In this document: positions 7,337 to 19,612 of the stretch, one piece after another
Layout: each line of letters opens with the position of its first letter
Numbering within the stretch: position 1 is the first letter of the stretch
From: Pseudofrankia inefficax
GTDB taxonomy: Bacteria; Actinomycetota; Actinomycetes; Frankiales; Frankiaceae
Assembly (NCBI RefSeq): GCF_000166135.1
Contig: NC_014666.1
Coordinates: 372,001 to 436,000, forward strand
Length of the DNA: 64,000 nucleotides
Direction: 5' to 3'
Position numbers and translations under genes: made by a program
Notes under the pieces: model-generated
Databases searched by the model: none
What the model was told of the DNA's origin: nothing
The model's input: the letters and a program-made list of their open reading frames with translations, nothing else

Positions 7337-9157
7337 TCAGGACGGGCGGGGGCCTCGGGCGATTGCTTCGGGGGTGAGTGTCCCCACGAACGGCAAGGTT
7401 CGGTAGTGCTCGGCATAGTCGAGGCCGTAGCCGACCACAAAGGCGCTCGGGATGTCGAAACCGACATATCGGACGTCGACGTCGACGGTGATGGCCTCCG
7501 GCTTCCGGAACAGCGCCAGCACCTCAAGCGAGCCCGGGTTACGCGAACGCAGGTTCTTGAGTAGCCAGGACAGGGTCAGCCCGGAGTCGATGATGTCCTC
7601 GACTACCAGGACGTCGCGTCCCTCGATCGACCGGTCCAGATCCTTGAGGATGCGGACCACTCCGGACGAGGAACTCGCCGAGCCGTAGGACGACACGGCC
7701 ATGAACTCCATGGTCACGGGGGTACGCAGCGCCCGCGAGAGGTCGGCCATGACCATGACAGCGCCCTTGAGCACGCCCACCAGCAGCAGCTCGCGCCCGG
7801 CGTAGTCGGCGTCGACCTGCGCGGCGAGGGCGGCGATGCGGGTGGCGATCTCCTCCTCGCTGACGAGGACCTCGCCGATGTCCCCGTCGTGCCAGGGCGG
7901 CGTGTCGGCGGGCGCCGAGCCGGGTTTGCTCTGATCGGGCGAGCCGGTTGTGCTTTGATCAGCGGAGTCGGGTGCGCTCACTTCGGCCTGGCTCACCGGC
8001 ATGCCCTCCTCGGCGTCGGGCCGCGCGGCGTCAGGCCGGCGCGGCGATGGTCGCGGGCCGGTCGGCCCTGATGCAGCGTCGCCACCGTCCGCCGTCCCGC
8101 GGCGCCCGGACCTGGTCTCGCCCGGTCCGGCCACGCTGATCCTGTCACCTCGACGCCGGGCGGTGACGCCGGACGGCAGCGGGACCGGCTGCTGCCCGCG
8201 CCATCGGGTCACCAGCTCCTCCATCGCCCAGACGTGCTCGGCGCGCAGCGCGGACGCCGATGCGCCCAGCGCGAGCGCGGCCCGGCGCAGCACCCGGGTC
8301 CGCAGCGCGCTGGGTAACGACCCGAGCGCCTCGACGGCGAGTTCGACCGAACCAGCGCCGGCCGGTGAACCGGCGGTGGCCTGGGCATAGGCGTCATCCG
8401 TCAGCGCGTCGAGCGCCTCGGCATCGGCGCGCAGCAGGTCGGCGCTGCGGGACAACGACTCGGCGATACCAGGACCGAGCTGTTCCTCCAGCGCCGGCAG
8501 CAGGGCGTGCCGGACGCGGGCTCTGGCGAAGGCCGCGTCGGCGTTCGTCGGGTCCTCCCACACGTCTAGACCCTCGGCGCGGCAGGCGGCCCTGGTCTGC
8601 TCCTTGCGCAGTCCCAGCAGCGGCCGGCGCAGCAGTCCGTCGCGCGGCGACATGGCGCCCAGCGAGCGGGCCCCGGCGCCGCGGGCGAGCCTCAGCAGCA
8701 CGGTCTCGGCCTGGTCGTCCAAGGTGTGGCCGAGCAGCAGCGCCGCGGCGCCCAACCGTTCGGCGGCGGCCGCGAGCGCCGCCCGCCGGGCGTCCCGCGC
8801 GGCTCCCTCGGACCGGGCCGAGTGCGCGACCAACAGCTCCACCGGGTCCAACCGCAGCGCCCGGCCCTGCGCGACGACGGACTCGGCCCGCTGGTCGGAG
8901 GCGCCGTCCCAGCCGTGGTCGACCGTGAGCAGCCCGGCGCGCAGGGCGCGGCGCGGCGCGACGAACGCCGTCGCGGCGGCCAGCGCCAACGAGTCCGGCC
9001 CCCCCGAGCAGGCGACCAGCACCAGCGCTCCGGGCGGCAGATCGGCGACGGCGTGCCGCACGGCCAACCGGATGGCGGCCACGGCCGGCGCCGGCGACCC
9101 CGACGGGTGGATCCGCTGCCCGCTGGCGGGGCTCGCGGAACCGGTCACCCGCGGCAC
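7337..9157 (-). CDS. tilS-hpt: Fused tRNA-Ile lysidine synthetase TilS and hypoxanthine phosphoribosyltransferase
   Basis: One 606-codon frame encodes two enzymes. Residues about 40-340 are TilS, which makes lysidine at the wobble base of tRNA-Ile(CAU); the PP-loop motif SGGPDS is at 51-56. Residues about 435-606 are hypoxanthine phosphoribosyltransferase, a purine-salvage enzyme, with the PRPP motif [14 protein letters not shown] at 516-529. A Pro/Ser/Asp-rich linker joins them. In most actinomycetes these are adjacent separate genes. A Met codon at 8002 and a Val codon at 7996 follow a GAGGAGG sequence inside the linker, so free Hpt might also be made. The GTG start at 9157 directly follows the stop of the upstream metalloprotease gene. 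Confidence 0.92.
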
Positions 9158-15017: not shown

Positions 15018-16106
15018 TTAGGCCGGGCCGGCGGGGCGGGAACGTCGCCGCCGAATCCGATGGTGACCCCCTTCGCCCGAGTCGGTCTGGCCCGCCGCGG
15101 TTTCCGCGTCGGGCCGTTCGGCGTTGCCCGCCCCGCCGGGCCCCGGGCCTCGGCTCACGGCCTCCGTCGCGACGCCCGCCGCGGTCGAGCCCGCGCCGAC
15201 CTGGGCGGCGTCGCGGCCGGCGTCGGCCTCAATCTGGCCGGGACCCGCACCGGCGAGGACGGCGGAGTCGCAGCCGGAGGACGCGGTCGCCGGGTAGGCG
15301 GCGTCGTGAGCGCGGCGGGACGAACAGACGTCGGACCGGTCGCACGCCTTGCGGCCCCCCGCGTCGAGCGCGACGACGACCTGTTGGCGCGGTACGTCAT
15401 GGGCGATCACCCGGCCGGGGCCGTCGGGCGTGCGCGCCTTTGCGCCGACCGCCGGGACGGCGGCGGTGAACTCCTCGTACAACGGGTGTTCGTAGCGCAG
15501 GCAGCACATCAGTCGCCCGCAGGCACCGCTGATCTTCAATGGGTTCAGGGCCAGGTTCTGGTCCTTCGCCATCCGGATGCTCACCGGCTCGAAGTCGGTG
15601 AGGAACGTCGAGCAACACAGGTCTCGGCCGCAGGAGCCGATCCCACCCTGAAGCTTCGCGCTGTCCCGCGCGGACAGCTGGCGTAGGTGGACCCGGGTGT
15701 CCAACGTCCGGTTGAGGTCACGGACGAGCGCGCGGAAGTCGACCCGCCCCTCGGCGGTGAAGTAGATCGTGAAGGTGTCGGCGGAGCTGACGTGGTCGAC
15801 TCCGACGATCTTCATCGGCAGTCCGTGGTCGCGGACCAGGCGCCTGGCGGCGACCCTCGCCTGGGCGCGCCGCCGCCGCGAGGCCGCCTCACGCTCCACG
15901 TCGTGGTCGGCCGCGAGCCCTACCAGCACCGGCAGGTGCCCGATGTCCTCGCTGACCCACTGGGGCGCCCACATGCAGGTGGCCACCTCGGCGCCGTCAT
16001 CGGTCGGGACGAGCACCCGGTCGCCGACCTTCGGCGTGAGTGACCCGGGATCGGCGTAGTAGAGCTTCCCTCGAGGGGAGAAAGCCACCGCGCACATCAT
16101 CGGCAT
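15018..16106 (-). CDS. ricT: PSP1 C-terminal domain protein (RicT/YaaT-like)
   Basis: This 362-residue protein is homologous to RicT (YaaT), in Bacillus a subunit of a Fe-S complex acting on RNA processing and development. The PSP1 domain covers about residues 60-245. Its cysteine signature is C159-GRDL-CC165 and C196-GRLM-CC202, which would bind Fe-S clusters. The tail (about 270-362) is low-complexity Gly/Ala/Arg. An ATG at 16106 begins the conserved region; codons upstream to 16460 are open but unlike the family. holB is its normal neighbour in actinomycetes; here a peptide gene and a monooxygenase gene on the opposite strand intervene. Confidence 0.88.
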   Translation of the reverse strand: MPMMCAVAFSPRGKLYYADPGSLTPKVGDRVLVPTDDGAEVATCMWAPQWVSEDIGHLPVLVGLAADHDVEREAASRRRRAQARVAARRLVRDHGLPMKIVGVDHVSSADTFTIYFTAEGRVDFRALVRDLNRTLDTRVHLRQLSARDSAKLQGGIGSCGRDLCCSTFLTDFEPVSIRMAKDQNLALNPLKISGACGRLMCCLRYEHPLYEEFTAAVPAVGAKARTPDGPGRVIAHDVPRQQVVVALDAGGRKACDRSDVCSSRRAHDAAYPATASSGCDSAVLAGAGPGQIEADAGRDAAQVGAGSTAAGVATEAVSRGPGPGGAGNAERPDAETAAGQTDSGEGGHHRIRRRRSRPAGPA

Positions 16107-16668
16107 GGGTGCCCGCGCCTTCCGTGTCGCTGCCGGCGACCGCGCCTGCCGCGACAAGCCTCGGCGTCGGCGGGGCAGGGAACCCGTCGTGTCCGCGCCG
16201 ATCGGGAGATCGGCACCGAACGTGGTCATCCAGGCCGTGGCCGGAAATCGGGCGGAGGAACCGGCGGGAATCGCCCTGCGGGCCAGAGCGTACGTCCGGT
16301 GCCGTCCCCGGGCATCAGGTTCGCCGGGTCCTGGGCGGTTCGTCCTCAACCTGCTGGTAACGGCGGGATCTGCGCAGCGTGCTGAACCGTCGGTGAACCG
16401 GCCGGTGGCATCCTGGTAACCGGTTGACTTCGGACGGTAATCCGCGACGACCGTTCCCACCTTTGGATAAAGATTCGCGACGCCCGGAGTCGCCGAGGTA
16501 TGTGCACGCTGAGTAATGAACGGCGGATGAATCCTCAGGTGGGAGGCTAGTGACTGGTCGGATGCGGGCGGTTATTACGCCTGATCGACGCGTCGGTGCT
16601 TAGCCGATGGCCGTCGGCTTGTTCGGCCGAGGGCGCCTAGGAGCGCACTTACAGGGGGAGGAAACATC
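16107..16668. other. Divergent intergenic region ricT / RiPP precursor
   Basis: These 562 bases separate the divergent starts of ricT and the precursor peptide gene. The ricT frame stays open to 16460 but lacks family features there. A possible plus-strand promoter is at 16550-16578. Base composition drops between 16420 and 16600, as expected of a regulatory region. Confidence 0.55.
16550..16578 (+). promoter_or_regulatory. Possible promoter for the RiPP precursor gene
   Basis: GTGACT (16550-16555) and TATTAC (16573-16578) each match four of six bases of the vegetative -35 and -10 consensus, with a 17-base spacer. It lies 90 bp upstream of the precursor ATG. This is a weak pattern match only. 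Confidence 0.3.
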
Positions 16669-16854
16669 ATGAAGGCTACGTATCAGGCCCCGACCCTCCA
16701 GGATGCCGGGTCCTTCCGCGACCTCACCGGGTACGGCTTCGTCGGCGTCGGCGGCTTCGGCGGCTGGGGCGGCGGCGGCTGGGGCGGCTGGGGCGGCGGC
16801 TGGGGCGGCTGGGGCGGCGGCGGCGGCTGGGGTGGCTGGGGCGGCGGCTGGTAA
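16669..16854 (+). CDS. RiPP precursor peptide: lasso-type leader, Gly/Trp-rich core
   Basis: The gene encodes 61 residues. The leader, residues 1-21, contains Y5-x-x-P8-x-L10-x3-G14-x-F16-x3-T20. This is the YxxPxLxxxG...T pattern by which actinobacterial lasso-peptide leaders bind their recognition element. The rest, from Y22, is 27 Gly, 8 Trp (33, 38, 41, 45, 48, 54, 57, 61), 2 Phe, 2 Val and 1 Tyr. WGGWGGGW occurs twice (38-45, 54-61). The core has no Asp, Glu, Cys, Ser, Thr or Lys, so macrolactam, lanthionine or azole formation is impossible. A strong GGGGGAGGA (16654-16662) stands seven bases before the ATG. A VioD-like flavin monooxygenase gene follows. That the aromatic side chains are modified is an inference. 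Confidence 0.87.
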   Translation: MKATYQAPTLQDAGSFRDLTGYGFVGVGGFGGWGGGGWGGWGGGWGGWGGGGGWGGWGGGW

Positions 16855-16924
16855 GACAGCGGCCCTGGCGCCCGTTGAGGTCGTGGACGCCTCGATTCGA
16901 GACAGCCTCACATGCAGGACCCGT

Positions 16925-16959
16925 CGGTGGCGGTGGTCGTTCGATGACCACCGCCACCG
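16925..16959 (+). terminator. Strong hairpin between precursor and monooxygenase
   Basis: The arms CGGTGGCGGTGGTC (16925-16938) and its inverse (16946-16959) form a perfect 14-bp stem around GTTCGAT. It lies 70 bp after the precursor stop and about 130 bp before the monooxygenase start. No T-run follows, so partial termination or 3'-end protection of the precursor mRNA is more likely than full termination. Such structures are common behind abundantly expressed RiPP precursors. Confidence 0.7.
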
Positions 16960-17087
16960 GCGTTCGCTGGGACGGGCCTGGCGGGCTGAGCTGTCCGGCC
17001 GGCGGGCCGCCGCGTCGGTGGCGCCGGGAGTGGGTACCCACACTGCAACACGTGGTGACTGAACCCTCACGGAAGGCGACGGCTCGG

Positions 17088-18359
17088 ATGAGGATTGTTT
17101 GTGTCGGCGGCGGGCCCGCCGGGCTGTACTTCGCGATCTGCGCCAAGCGGCGCAACCCCGACCACGAGATCACCGTGCTGGAGCGGGACCCGGCTGGAGC
17201 GACCCACGGCTGGGGGGTCGCCTACTGGGAGCCGTTGATCGACAACATGTTTCACAACGACCCGGTCTGCGCGCTGGCAGTGCAGGACGCCGCGGCGCTG
17301 TGGCAGGAGCACCGGCTCGCCGTCGGCACTCGGACGGCCTACCTGCCCGGCCACGGCTACGGCATCCAGCGGTCGGTCCTGCTCGACGTGTTCGCGCGGC
17401 GCGCGACCGAGCTCGGTGTCCGGCTGCACTACCGCCAGGGCATCGTCGACGAGGCGGAGCTGCGCGCGTTGTGCGCGGAGAACGACCTGGTGGTCGCGGC
17501 GGACGGCGGGCGCAGCCAGGTGCGGCGGCTGGCCGGGACGGACGTCTTCGGCACCCGTCTCGAAGAGGGCCTGAACCCGTATATCTGGCTGGGCACCGAC
17601 CAGCGGTTCACGGACTTCCGATTCGCGTTCCAGCGCACGCCACATGGCTGGATCTGGTTCCACGCCTACCCGTCAGCGTCGGATGTCGGGACCTGCGTGT
17701 TCGAGTGCGCGCCGACGACCTGGACCGGGCTCGGTCTGGACCGACTCGACGACGCGGCGGGGCGCGAGCTGCTGGAGACGATCTTCGCCGACCAGCTCGC
17801 CGGCCACCGGCTCCTCGGCGGCGGCGAAGGCGACCGGGGCACGAGTCGGCCGGCCCACTGGCAGCGGTTCACCCATGTCAGCAATCGCTCGTGGCGGCAC
17901 GACAACATCGTGCTGATCGGCGACGCCGCGCACACCACTCACTTCACCTTCGGGTCCGGAACCGCGCTGGCGATGATGGACGCCGTCATGCTCGCCCGGT
18001 TCCTGCGCCGGCACGACGGCGACCTCCCGGCGGCGCTGACGGCGTTCGACACCGCCGGGCGCAAGGCACTCGGCCGGGTGCAGGCGCACGCGCGCAGGGG
18101 ATCGGACTGGTTCGAACGGATCGACGACCTCTTCGACAACGAGCTGGCCAGCCCGCAGGACAGTATCGACGGGCCCGATCCGGTGACGGTCGCCGCGGCG
18201 CTGTCCAGCCGCCATGGCGGCGGTATCCAGCCGCTGCGCCGCCGCGTGCTGCGCTCGAACCAGGTCCCGGCGGTGCGCCGGGTGCGCCGGGAGGCCAGCA
18301 CGGGCGGCCGCTGGCTGCGCGAGCGCCGCCGCGCCCGCGAGCTGACCCGAGCCGGCTAG
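17088..18359 (+). CDS. FAD-dependent aromatic monooxygenase (VioD/salicylyl-CoA hydroxylase type)
   Basis: The 423-residue protein is a class A flavoprotein hydroxylase, using FAD and NAD(P)H to hydroxylate an aromatic ring. It has the N-terminal dinucleotide motif GGGPAGLYFA (7-16), HGWGVAYWEP resembling VioD, NPYIWLGTDQRF in the substrate domain, and the FAD motif with GDAAHTTHFTFGSG at 278-291. From about 370 the tail is Arg-rich. Overall it resembles VioD, which hydroxylates an indole ring, and salicylyl-CoA 5-hydroxylases. It follows the Trp-rich peptide gene, which makes peptide tryptophan a plausible substrate (inference). ATG 17088 has GGAAGG upstream; GTG 17055 is an alternative. The 3' end overlaps convergent holB by four bases. 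Confidence 0.88.
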   Translation: MRIVCVGGGPAGLYFAICAKRRNPDHEITVLERDPAGATHGWGVAYWEPLIDNMFHNDPVCALAVQDAAALWQEHRLAVGTRTAYLPGHGYGIQRSVLLDVFARRATELGVRLHYRQGIVDEAELRALCAENDLVVAADGGRSQVRRLAGTDVFGTRLEEGLNPYIWLGTDQRFTDFRFAFQRTPHGWIWFHAYPSASDVGTCVFECAPTTWTGLGLDRLDDAAGRELLETIFADQLAGHRLLGGGEGDRGTSRPAHWQRFTHVSNRSWRHDNIVLIGDAAHTTHFTFGSGTALAMMDAVMLARFLRRHDGDLPAALTAFDTAGRKALGRVQAHARRGSDWFERIDDLFDNELASPQDSIDGPDPVTVAAALSSRHGGGIQPLRRRVLRSNQVPAVRRVRREASTGGRWLRERRRARELTRAG

Positions 18360-19612
18360 GGCTCTCGAAGCGTCAGGGCGAGGGACTCGACGGTGAGCTG
18401 GGCGACCAGCCCAGGGTTGGCCGCCAGGGCGTCGCGGGTGGCGAGCACCGCCTCCAGGCGCTGCAGCGTGCGCTCCGGCGTCGCCCTGGCCGCCAGGCTC
18501 GCGATCTCGCGGGTGGCGTCCGGATTGACCGGGTCGACGGTTGCGCCGAGCTGTCGGGCGAGGACGTCGCGGTACAGGCCGGCGAGGTCGAGCAGGGCCC
18601 GGTCGAGCGAGTCCAGGACGGTGCGCCGGCCCCGGCTCTTCTGCGACTTCTCCAGGTCCTTGAGGGCGCCGGCCGCGCCGCGCACCATCATCGTCTTCGC
18701 CTTCGGGGCGGCCTTCGTGACACGTTTGGTCCGGCCGGTGCCCCCGGACGAGGTGGCGCCCATGCCGAGCGCGGTGCGCAGCGCGCCGGCCTCCGCCTCG
18801 TCGCGCTCGGAGTTCGCGGTCTGGGCGTCGGCGTTCGCGGCGGCGACGAGGTCGCCGGCCGCCGCCAGGCACTCGGCGACCCGTCCGAGCCGGCTCGGGA
18901 GCGCCAGCACCTGAGCCCGGCGGCCCCGGGTCTCGTCGTCGGTGGCCAGCAGCCGCGCCCGGCCGAGGTGGCCTTGCGCCGCCCTGGCCGCGACCTGGGC
19001 CGTCGCCTCGTCGACCCCGTCGCGCCGCAGCGCTCCGACCAGGTCGTCGACGGTCGGCAGCCGCAGCGCCACCACCCGGCAGCGGGACCGGATCGTCGGC
19101 ATGACGTCGTCAACGGAGGGCGCGCACAGCAGGAACACCGAACGCTGCGCCGGCTCCTCCAGCGCCTTCAGCAGCGCGTTCGCGGCCGAGTCGGTCAGCC
19201 GGTCGGCCTCCTCGATGAGCAGGATCCGGTACCGGCCGCTGGTCGGCGCGCTCGCCGCGTCGCGGACCAGCGCCCGGACGTCCTGGACCCCGAGTGAGAG
19301 CCCCTCGGCCCGCACCGTGCGCAGGTCGGCCGCGGTGTCGGTGAGCACCGTGTGGCAGCCGACGCACTCCCCGCAGCCTGGCCGCGCGCTGGTGCCGTCG
19401 GCGCGCACGCAGCTCAGCGCGGCGGCGAAGGCCCGAGCCGCGTCCGTCCGGCCAGCGCCGGCAGGACCGGTGAACAGCCACGAGTGGGTCATCCCGGCGC
19501 GGGCGGCCGCGAGCGCTCCCTGCGGACCGCCGACGAGTGTCGCGGCGGCAGCCGCCGCCTCCAGGGTCTCGACCACCGCGTCCTGGCCGACGAGCGCGTC
19601 CCAGACGGTCAT
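18356..19612 (-). CDS. holB: DNA polymerase III subunit delta'
   Basis: This 418-residue clamp-loader subunit helps load the beta sliding clamp on DNA. It has a degenerate Walker A GPAGAGRT at 49-56 (Arg for Lys, as usual for delta', which does not hydrolyse ATP). A Cys-rich zinc module CGECVGC is near residue 78, and SRYRILL-type and ALLKALEEP segments follow. A Lys-rich region around 305-325 is an actinobacterial addition. The ATG overlaps the upstream MFS-Tmk stop as ATGA, indicating translational coupling. Its stop region overlaps the end of the plus-strand monooxygenase. Confidence 0.93.
   Translation of the reverse strand: MTVWDALVGQDAVVETLEAAAAAATLVGGPQGALAAARAGMTHSWLFTGPAGAGRTDAARAFAAALSCVRADGTSARPGCGECVGCHTVLTDTAADLRTVRAEGLSLGVQDVRALVRDAASAPTSGRYRILLIEEADRLTDSAANALLKALEEPAQRSVFLLCAPSVDDVMPTIRSRCRVVALRLPTVDDLVGALRRDGVDEATAQVAARAAQGHLGRARLLATDDETRGRRAQVLALPSRLGRVAECLAAAGDLVAAANADAQTANSERDEAEAGALRTALGMGATSSGGTGRTKRVTKAAPKAKTMMVRGAAGALKDLEKSQKSRGRRTVLDSLDRALLDLAGLYRDVLARQLGATVDPVNPDATREIASLAARATPERTLQRLEAVLATRDALAANPGLVAQLTVESLALTLREP

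Follow-up and report, generated by a model that had tools for sequence, protein, structure and literature searches.

In violacein biosynthesis, VioD acts on the indole of a small bisindole substrate. AmmC1, from ammosamide biosynthesis, uses a flavin, and lasso peptides close their macrolactam through an Asp or Glu near core position 7–9. QhpG is a flavoprotein monooxygenase that dihydroxylates protein-bound Trp of quinohemoprotein amine dehydrogenase (PMC7876137), and AmmC1 trihydroxylates peptide-bound Trp (PMC12715798). The roles that B1, the RRE, and B2, a cysteine protease, have for lasso precursors are described in PMC13352647.

The window analyzed here is a stretch of 64,000 nucleotides (C1:372001–436000, 73% GC) from a genome of 8,815,781 bases. 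It contains a gene for a Gly/Trp-rich peptide with a lasso-type leader (Table 1), and the next gene on the same strand, 233 bp downstream and without overlap, encodes a VioD-like FAD monooxygenase. Considering the sequence evidence set out below, we propose, with a probability of roughly 0.6, that the two genes form a module in which a VioD-type FAD monooxygenase would oxidize the Trp residues of a ribosomally made Gly/Trp-repeat peptide. QhpG resembles the proposed enzyme in being a flavoprotein that acts on Trp inside a polypeptide, but it modifies one Trp of a pre-crosslinked protein (PMC7876137); no entry named QhpG is found among the PDB matches listed (60 of 85) for the monooxygenase. 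AmmC1 likewise hydroxylates peptide-bound Trp on a ribosomal scaffold, but there a PEARL appends the Trp, which is eventually cleaved away to give a small molecule, and the gene set is another one (PMC12715798). Given that both enzymes hydroxylate peptide-bound Trp, the original prediction went too far in stating that known RiPP chemistries do not fit this core.

Table 1. Coordinates of the precursor, its neighbors and the lasso operon of the same genome (window positions unless a locus is named)
Feature	Position	Strand	Basis or remark
Gly/Trp-rich precursor peptide gene, 61 aa	16669..16854	+	ORF; NF033521 and PF19397 over cut-off; conserved family
Lasso-type leader, residues 1-20	16669..16728	+	motif at residues 5-20; pN/pS 0.37 over 30 rows
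Core, 41 residues (21-61): 28 Gly, 8 Trp, 2 Phe, 2 Val, 1 Tyr	16729..16851	+	
19-bp stem-loop between precursor and monooxygenase, without T-run	16922..16962	+	-38.9 kcal/mol
VioD-like FAD monooxygenase, 423 aa, proposed Trp oxygenase	17088..18359	+	PF01494; VioD closest solved relative
RicT	15018-16229	opposite to precursor	neighbor (NCBIfam/Pfam)
DNA polymerase III delta'	18356-19612	opposite to precursor	neighbor (NCBIfam/Pfam)
Lasso operon L018 (precursor, asparagine-synthetase-like cyclase, B1, B2, ABC transporter)	L018 4409-9981		same genome (C1), about 65 kb upstream of the Gly/Trp precursor

The precursor gene and its family in Frankiaceae

Translation of positions 16669–16854 on the plus strand gives MKATYQAPTLQDAGSFRDLTGYGFVGVGGFGGWGGGGWGGWGGGWGGWGGGGGWGGWGGGW, ending in a stop codon, and a ribosome-site-like stretch, GGGGGAGGA, lies shortly 5' of the ATG; scans for sigma-70 promoters and T-run terminators returned nothing on this strand. 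Residues 5–20 read YxxPxLxxxGxFxxxT, and the leader passes both NCBIfam NF033521 (lasso_leader_L3; 29.1 bits, cut-off 19) and Pfam PF19397 (DUF5972; 27.7 bits, cut-off 22.6), in line with the lasso-type leader originally claimed. The predicted numbers of Trp, Phe, Val and Tyr in the core hold, and a recount gives 28 Gly instead of 27. WGGWGGGW occurs twice, as expected, and the 41 core residues include no Asp, Glu, Cys, Ser, Thr or Lys, a composition that agrees with the view that the only modifiable side chains are aromatic. A DNA pattern for W-G-G-W-G-G-G-W-G has one match in the 8.8-Mb genome, the precursor gene itself, and the reversed control pattern has none. At the level of sequence, the ORF is confirmed as a real gene. 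Elsewhere in the window, TilS (tRNA-lysidine synthetase) and hypoxanthine phosphoribosyltransferase share a single open frame of 606 aa (7337-9157, minus strand).

A peptide search of the eight genomes of the genus matched six, and inspection of the enzyme loci brought the number to eight, counting a contig-edge tail in G007; two tandem precursors are present in four of them (G001, G003, G004, G005). By hand tally, 25 of 35 Frankiaceae genomes carry a Gly/Trp precursor, whole or cut, a count that sets aside G013 and G014 (L172, L173), where lasso-like precursors have an Asp at the ring position and Gly/Trp tails. The leader profile matches 31 of the 35 genomes, ordinary lasso precursors included. 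On NF033521, the Frankiaceae Gly/Trp peptide L068 passes at 22.5 bits and the Frankia QA3 precursor (L066) scores 15.4, below the cut-off of 19. The set of distinct Frankiaceae peptides numbers 32 and includes the ordinary lasso precursor L061; over the 30 distinct rows whose leaders are of the MKxxY type, again including L061, the leader codons give a pN/pS of 0.37. Homologues with a conserved leader, on which the original prediction was staked, were thus found across Frankiaceae.

Gly makes up 55% and Trp 25% of the 32 collected cores; Asp contributes 0.3% and Glu is absent. Gly is encoded by GGC 512 times, GGT 144, GGA 47 and GGG 9, and Trp residues follow one another at a spacing of 2, 3 or 4 positions in 106, 82 and 59 of 291 intervals, respectively. 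Core length varies across Frankiaceae as Gly/Trp units are gained and lost, with the leader conserved, and such apparent unit gain and loss is as expected of a RiPP core. The predicted ribosomal precursor thus combines a conserved leader and a variable core, and it stands beside a candidate modifying enzyme.

Some precursors are remote from any enzyme gene (L020, L025, L213, L215, L216). Three Frankia genomes (G008, G012, G019; L213 9666-9854, L215 9106-9294, L153/L216) share a conserved second Gly/Trp precursor, which contains His and has no enzyme gene adjoining; by eye, a carotenoid-oxygenase-like gene and a gene for a secreted SurE-like protein lie near it in G008 and G012. Several Gly/Trp peptides from separate lineages have a Cys at or near the C-terminus (L022 10010-10294, L023 10287-10538, L024 9915-10214, L072, L073, L078, L221), which might allow disulfide pairing or anchoring. 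Draft contigs often stop inside or beside the Gly/Trp repeat (L007, L065, L070, L071, L072, L155, L158, L161, L163), so surveys based on short reads may find too few of these genes.

Co-occurrence with a VioD-like monooxygenase

Pfam assigns FAD_binding_3 (PF01494) and NAD_binding_8 to the monooxygenase, while Trp_halogenase reaches 19.4, below its cut-off of 21. The best NCBIfam models are PRK08255, a bifunctional salicylyl-CoA 5-hydroxylase, at 324 bits (cut-off 1078), and VioD at 156.9 bits (equivalog cut-off 620); the enzyme falls short of both, and its match to PRK08255 spans model positions 1–346 of 768, with the second half of the model missing. Profile and single-sequence searches alike give VioD (8gqr, 3c4a) as the closest solved structures, over residues 1–350, and in the enzyme-profile search VioD reaches 234 bits, far ahead of the next family (89 bits) among the PDB matches listed (60 of 85). 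The enzyme nevertheless lies outside the VioD equivalog by score, has about 70 extra C-terminal residues and stands beside a Gly/Trp peptide. From its kinship with VioD we infer that it would hydroxylate an indole ring.

Each of the eight genus genomes has one orthologue, to which G004 adds a 38% paralogue. In Frankiaceae, enzyme matches were obtained in 23 of 35 genomes, at 24 places; leaving out the G004 paralogue and the G021 enzyme, which is apparently L091 and lies outside the Gly/Trp group, yields 22 orthologues. All 22 are preceded by a Gly/Trp gene on their own strand, which is complete in 18, reduced to a tail at a contig edge in 3 and broken in 1. Of the 25 Frankiaceae genomes with a Gly/Trp precursor, 22 have the enzyme, and of the remaining 10 just 1 does (Fisher p 3e-5, an illustrative value because kinship is ignored); the first figure becomes 22 of 27 when G013 and G014 are counted in. 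The three precursor genomes with no enzyme match (G016, G018, G020) are drafts that are 95, 92 and 85% complete.

Named genomes were also searched with an enzyme profile, and the best 80 of 571 confirmed places form the locus set. The Gly/Trp test required at least 5 Trp and at least 14 Gly within 40 residues, in ORFs of at least 35 residues on either strand that do not overlap the enzyme, and was fixed only after a first look at the loci had shown such ORFs. In these best 80 of 571 loci, 21 ORFs in 21 loci passed, all 21 of them upstream and on the enzyme's strand, with none upstream on the other strand and none downstream on either strand (409 kb upstream and 445 kb downstream). They come from Nocardia (8 loci), Streptomycetaceae (5), Parafrankia (2), Pseudonocardiales MAGs (2), Frankia, Pseudonocardia, Saccharopolyspora and Geodermatophilus (1 each), which we take to represent five actinobacterial families, the family names being assigned from the genera. 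In another four loci (L065, L070, L071, L072), all that is visible of the peptide gene is a Gly/Trp tail where the contig begins. At least L065, L066, L068 and L069 are contigs of G007, G012, G024 and G028, so this count and the Frankiaceae count overlap. A looser test (at least 8 Trp in 60 residues, whatever the remaining residues) was uninformative, with 28 and 22 ORFs upstream on the same and the other strand and 13 and 11 downstream. The Streptomyces-type peptides of L075–L077 are sparse in Trp, reaching only about 5 per best window, and rich in His, Asp and Phe. No ORF of Streptomyces brasiliensis L067 passes the Gly/Trp test; its upstream frame has a signal-peptide-like start followed by W-G-S-S-S/D repeats, and to judge from these, Trp is a steadier element of the repeats than the rest.

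The enzyme tree comprised 65 rows: 57 of the 80 loci (23 of L113–L144 were omitted) and 8 genus rows. The latter were labelled as Gly/Trp loci by hand, including the broken gene of G006 and the contig-edge tail of G007 (the L065 gene), and L067 was labelled negative, the Trp repeats upstream of it having been read later. The labelled enzymes fall into one group of 39 (SH-aLRT 99), 29 with the gene, 4 with edge tails and 6 without, and none of the 26 tree rows outside the group has a Gly/Trp gene. For the unlabelled members L080 and L090, an upstream ABC gene reaches to or near the contig edge, which would hide any peptide gene lying farther out; the three Saccharopolyspora enzymes within the group that have no Gly/Trp gene (L079, L092, L102) are true negatives. 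With all 22 Frankiaceae orthologues, all 21 test ORFs and a single enzyme group in agreement, the anticipated co-occurrence with a VioD-like monooxygenase has strong support.

In a sample of 396 genomes of the phylum, 16 have an enzyme match at E 1e-90 or better, at 17 places. The window's own place has a Gly/Trp-like ORF within 1.5 kb and the 16 others have none, so the pair is not common. Of 120 plasmid records with an enzyme relative, two were inspected, from Pseudonocardia autotrophica and Nonomuraea gerenzanensis, and neither contains an ORF that passes the Gly/Trp test. Outside the group of 39, a FemAB/GNAT-like gene lies directly upstream of several VioD-like enzymes that have no Gly/Trp gene (L091, L093, L095, L101, L110, L111; PF13480 was tested in L093 and L111, and the others were assigned by eye). 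Among the items listed from the open-access literature, a scope in which subscription papers mostly do not fall, there was no account of Gly/Trp-repeat peptides beside a VioD-like enzyme and no mention of DUF5972; the pair is likely new to the literature.

Proximity of the two genes could also be explained if the peptide stayed unmodified and were secreted for a structural, adhesive or antimicrobial role, while the monooxygenase made or degraded a small aromatic that is merely co-regulated. The broader family of the enzyme does work on small aromatics, as the sub-threshold PRK08255 match illustrates, and Pfam finds no peptide-binding domain in it. However, no small-molecule pathway gene is widely common at the loci: besides the ABC gene, the largest neighbor cluster is a regulator-like gene in 6 of the 30 loci given, with a constant place only in four Streptomycetaceae. 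Moreover, the pair is kept across the five families, and the Trp-rich repeats remain where the N-terminus changes. We regard this explanation as unlikely, but one that retains appreciable weight.

The hairpin in the spacer

The stem-loop between the two genes, at −38.9 kcal/mol, lies below the minimum of 20 shuffles (−31.2 kcal/mol). The best hairpins in 14 other Frankiaceae spacers range from −27.7 to −41.6 kcal/mol, and in 12 of the 15 spacers the hairpin is lower than all 20 shuffles, a comparison that slightly favors the real sequences, which were scanned at every second base and the single-base shuffles at every fourth; a T-run terminator is absent from the precursor strand. We infer that the hairpin would serve as a stop or an mRNA stabilizer, yielding more peptide than enzyme, and it probably limits read-through into the enzyme gene.

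The hairpin could also suit an attenuator, with the Gly/Trp ORF as a Trp-sensing leader peptide on whose Trp codons a shortage of Trp would stall ribosomes, switching the hairpin and thereby controlling the monooxygenase gene. A Trp-dense ORF upstream of an indole-enzyme-like gene, combined with a strong hairpin in 12 of the 15 Frankiaceae spacers, is what such a switch would look like. Yet the amino acids of the leader are conserved, with the low pN/pS given above, the precursor occurs in tandem copies and its at least eight Trp codons far exceed the need. Further, lineages beyond Frankiaceae specify signal-peptide-like starts and products of more than 100 aa, with longer, signal-peptide-like products in Nocardia and Streptomycetaceae, and in five loci an ABC gene parts peptide and enzyme, so that the ORF does not directly precede the gene it would control. 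We rejected the attenuator on the conserved amino acids, the signal-peptide-like starts and the intervening ABC gene, and consider it quite improbable.

N-terminal addresses and the lasso machinery

The N-terminus of the peptide depends on the lineage. In Frankiaceae it is the lasso-type leader; in Nocardia and Streptomycetaceae it is basic, hydrophobic and Ala-rich, resembling by eye a Sec signal peptide; and Pseudonocardiales peptides have short, unrelated N-termini. Four peptides from outside Frankiaceae (L073, L074, L078, L085) were compared with the lasso leader models, and none matches. Given these other N-termini, the lasso leader and an RRE do not define the system, and on this point the original prediction is not supported as it was worded. 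Peptide and enzyme genes are separated by an ABC transporter gene in some Pseudonocardiales, one Saccharopolyspora and one Geodermatophilus: L078 and L083 (called by PF00664/PF00005), L072 and L081 (BLAST cluster; the L072 peptide is a contig-edge tail) and L089 (by eye). In L072, L078, L081 and L089 the end of the ABC gene overlaps the start of the enzyme gene by 4 bases. By this comparison, the conserved unit is the Trp-rich repeat plus the enzyme, and the export or processing element is exchanged.

Like lasso precursors (NF033521, PF19397), the Frankiaceae peptide carries the leader motif at scores above curated cut-offs; it differs in that its partner is an FAD monooxygenase and in that four related peptides elsewhere lack a lasso leader. 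No B (protease) or C (cyclase) gene lies beside the precursor, which is surrounded by RicT, the monooxygenase and DNA polymerase III delta', and the nearest PF13471 (B2) match is about 67 kb away. All 25 Frankiaceae genomes that carry a Gly/Trp precursor contain PF13471, versus 6 of the 10 others; with G013 and G014 counted, it is present in 26 of 27 Gly/Trp genomes. Because no B gene adjoins the precursor, we invoke B1 and B2 of the remote lasso operons; the chance that they act on it in trans seems about even. The genome of the window (G000) also contains a second pair of RRE and PF13471 genes (C1 6140545-6141230) and a third lasso-leader ORF at L003 (5.62 Mb).

Lasso precursors of the genus with the ring segment G-R-W/F-G-W-G-R-D occur in G000, G001, G003, G004 and G006. 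Their tails have Gly runs around III, and that of G001 ends in WGW. These tails resemble the VLIVGGGGGWG start of the Parafrankia Gly/Trp cores, a likeness that suggests descent of the Gly/Trp precursors from a lasso precursor.

A true lasso peptide, threaded and with its macrolactam closed by the genome's own cyclase, would account for a leader that passes lasso_leader_L3 and for a lasso operon 65 kb away. The core, however, offers no Asp or Glu for the ring, the collected cores are nearly devoid of acidic residues, and the adjacent B or C gene is missing; composition contradicts this reading, which we rejected as hardly credible. A chance ORF in GC-rich repetitive DNA, where at 73% GC the GGC/TGG repeats easily stay open, is refuted by the conservation of the leader, the curated-model matches, a repeat pattern that occurs once in this genome and the complete strand and position bias, and deserves next to no weight.

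We return to oxidation of the peptide by the monooxygenase as the preferred reading. The gene pair, its conservation, the kinship of the enzyme with VioD and the alternative N-termini are established at the sequence level; that the peptide is the substrate and Trp the site, that B1 and B2 act in trans and that the product has any particular function would follow by inference. In the proposed mechanism, the Gly/Trp-repeat peptide would be made on the ribosome, and the monooxygenase would oxidize, most simply hydroxylate, Trp indole rings in the cytoplasm ahead of export, with the N-terminal part acting as an exchangeable address. In Frankiaceae, the lasso-type leader would probably be bound by the RRE (B1) and removed by the cysteine protease (B2) encoded elsewhere. 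Export would proceed via the Sec-like signal peptide in Nocardia and Streptomycetaceae, and the intervening ABC transporter may export the peptide in the lineages that have one. The product would be a secreted, polymer-like peptide with many oxidized Trp residues, which might form cross-links, mediate adhesion, absorb light or have redox or antimicrobial activity. We see even odds for the wider proposal of an undescribed modification class, in which one VioD-type flavoenzyme would oxidize many or all Trp of a Gly/Trp-repeat peptide in several actinobacterial families, under three addresses (lasso leader, Sec signal peptide, short leader with ABC exporter), giving secreted oxidized-Trp polymers.

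If the preferred reading is true, the VioD-like family would join the enzymes that rewrite Trp inside peptides, with at least eight targets per chain, which would be unusual for a flavin monooxygenase. The lasso leader would be reusable for a peptide unable to become a lasso, and leader, signal peptide and exporter leader would be interchangeable around one modification. RiPP miners keyed to the leader or to known enzymes could then miss members of the family, and Frankia relatives, Nocardia and Streptomyces would be a source of oxidized-Trp materials.
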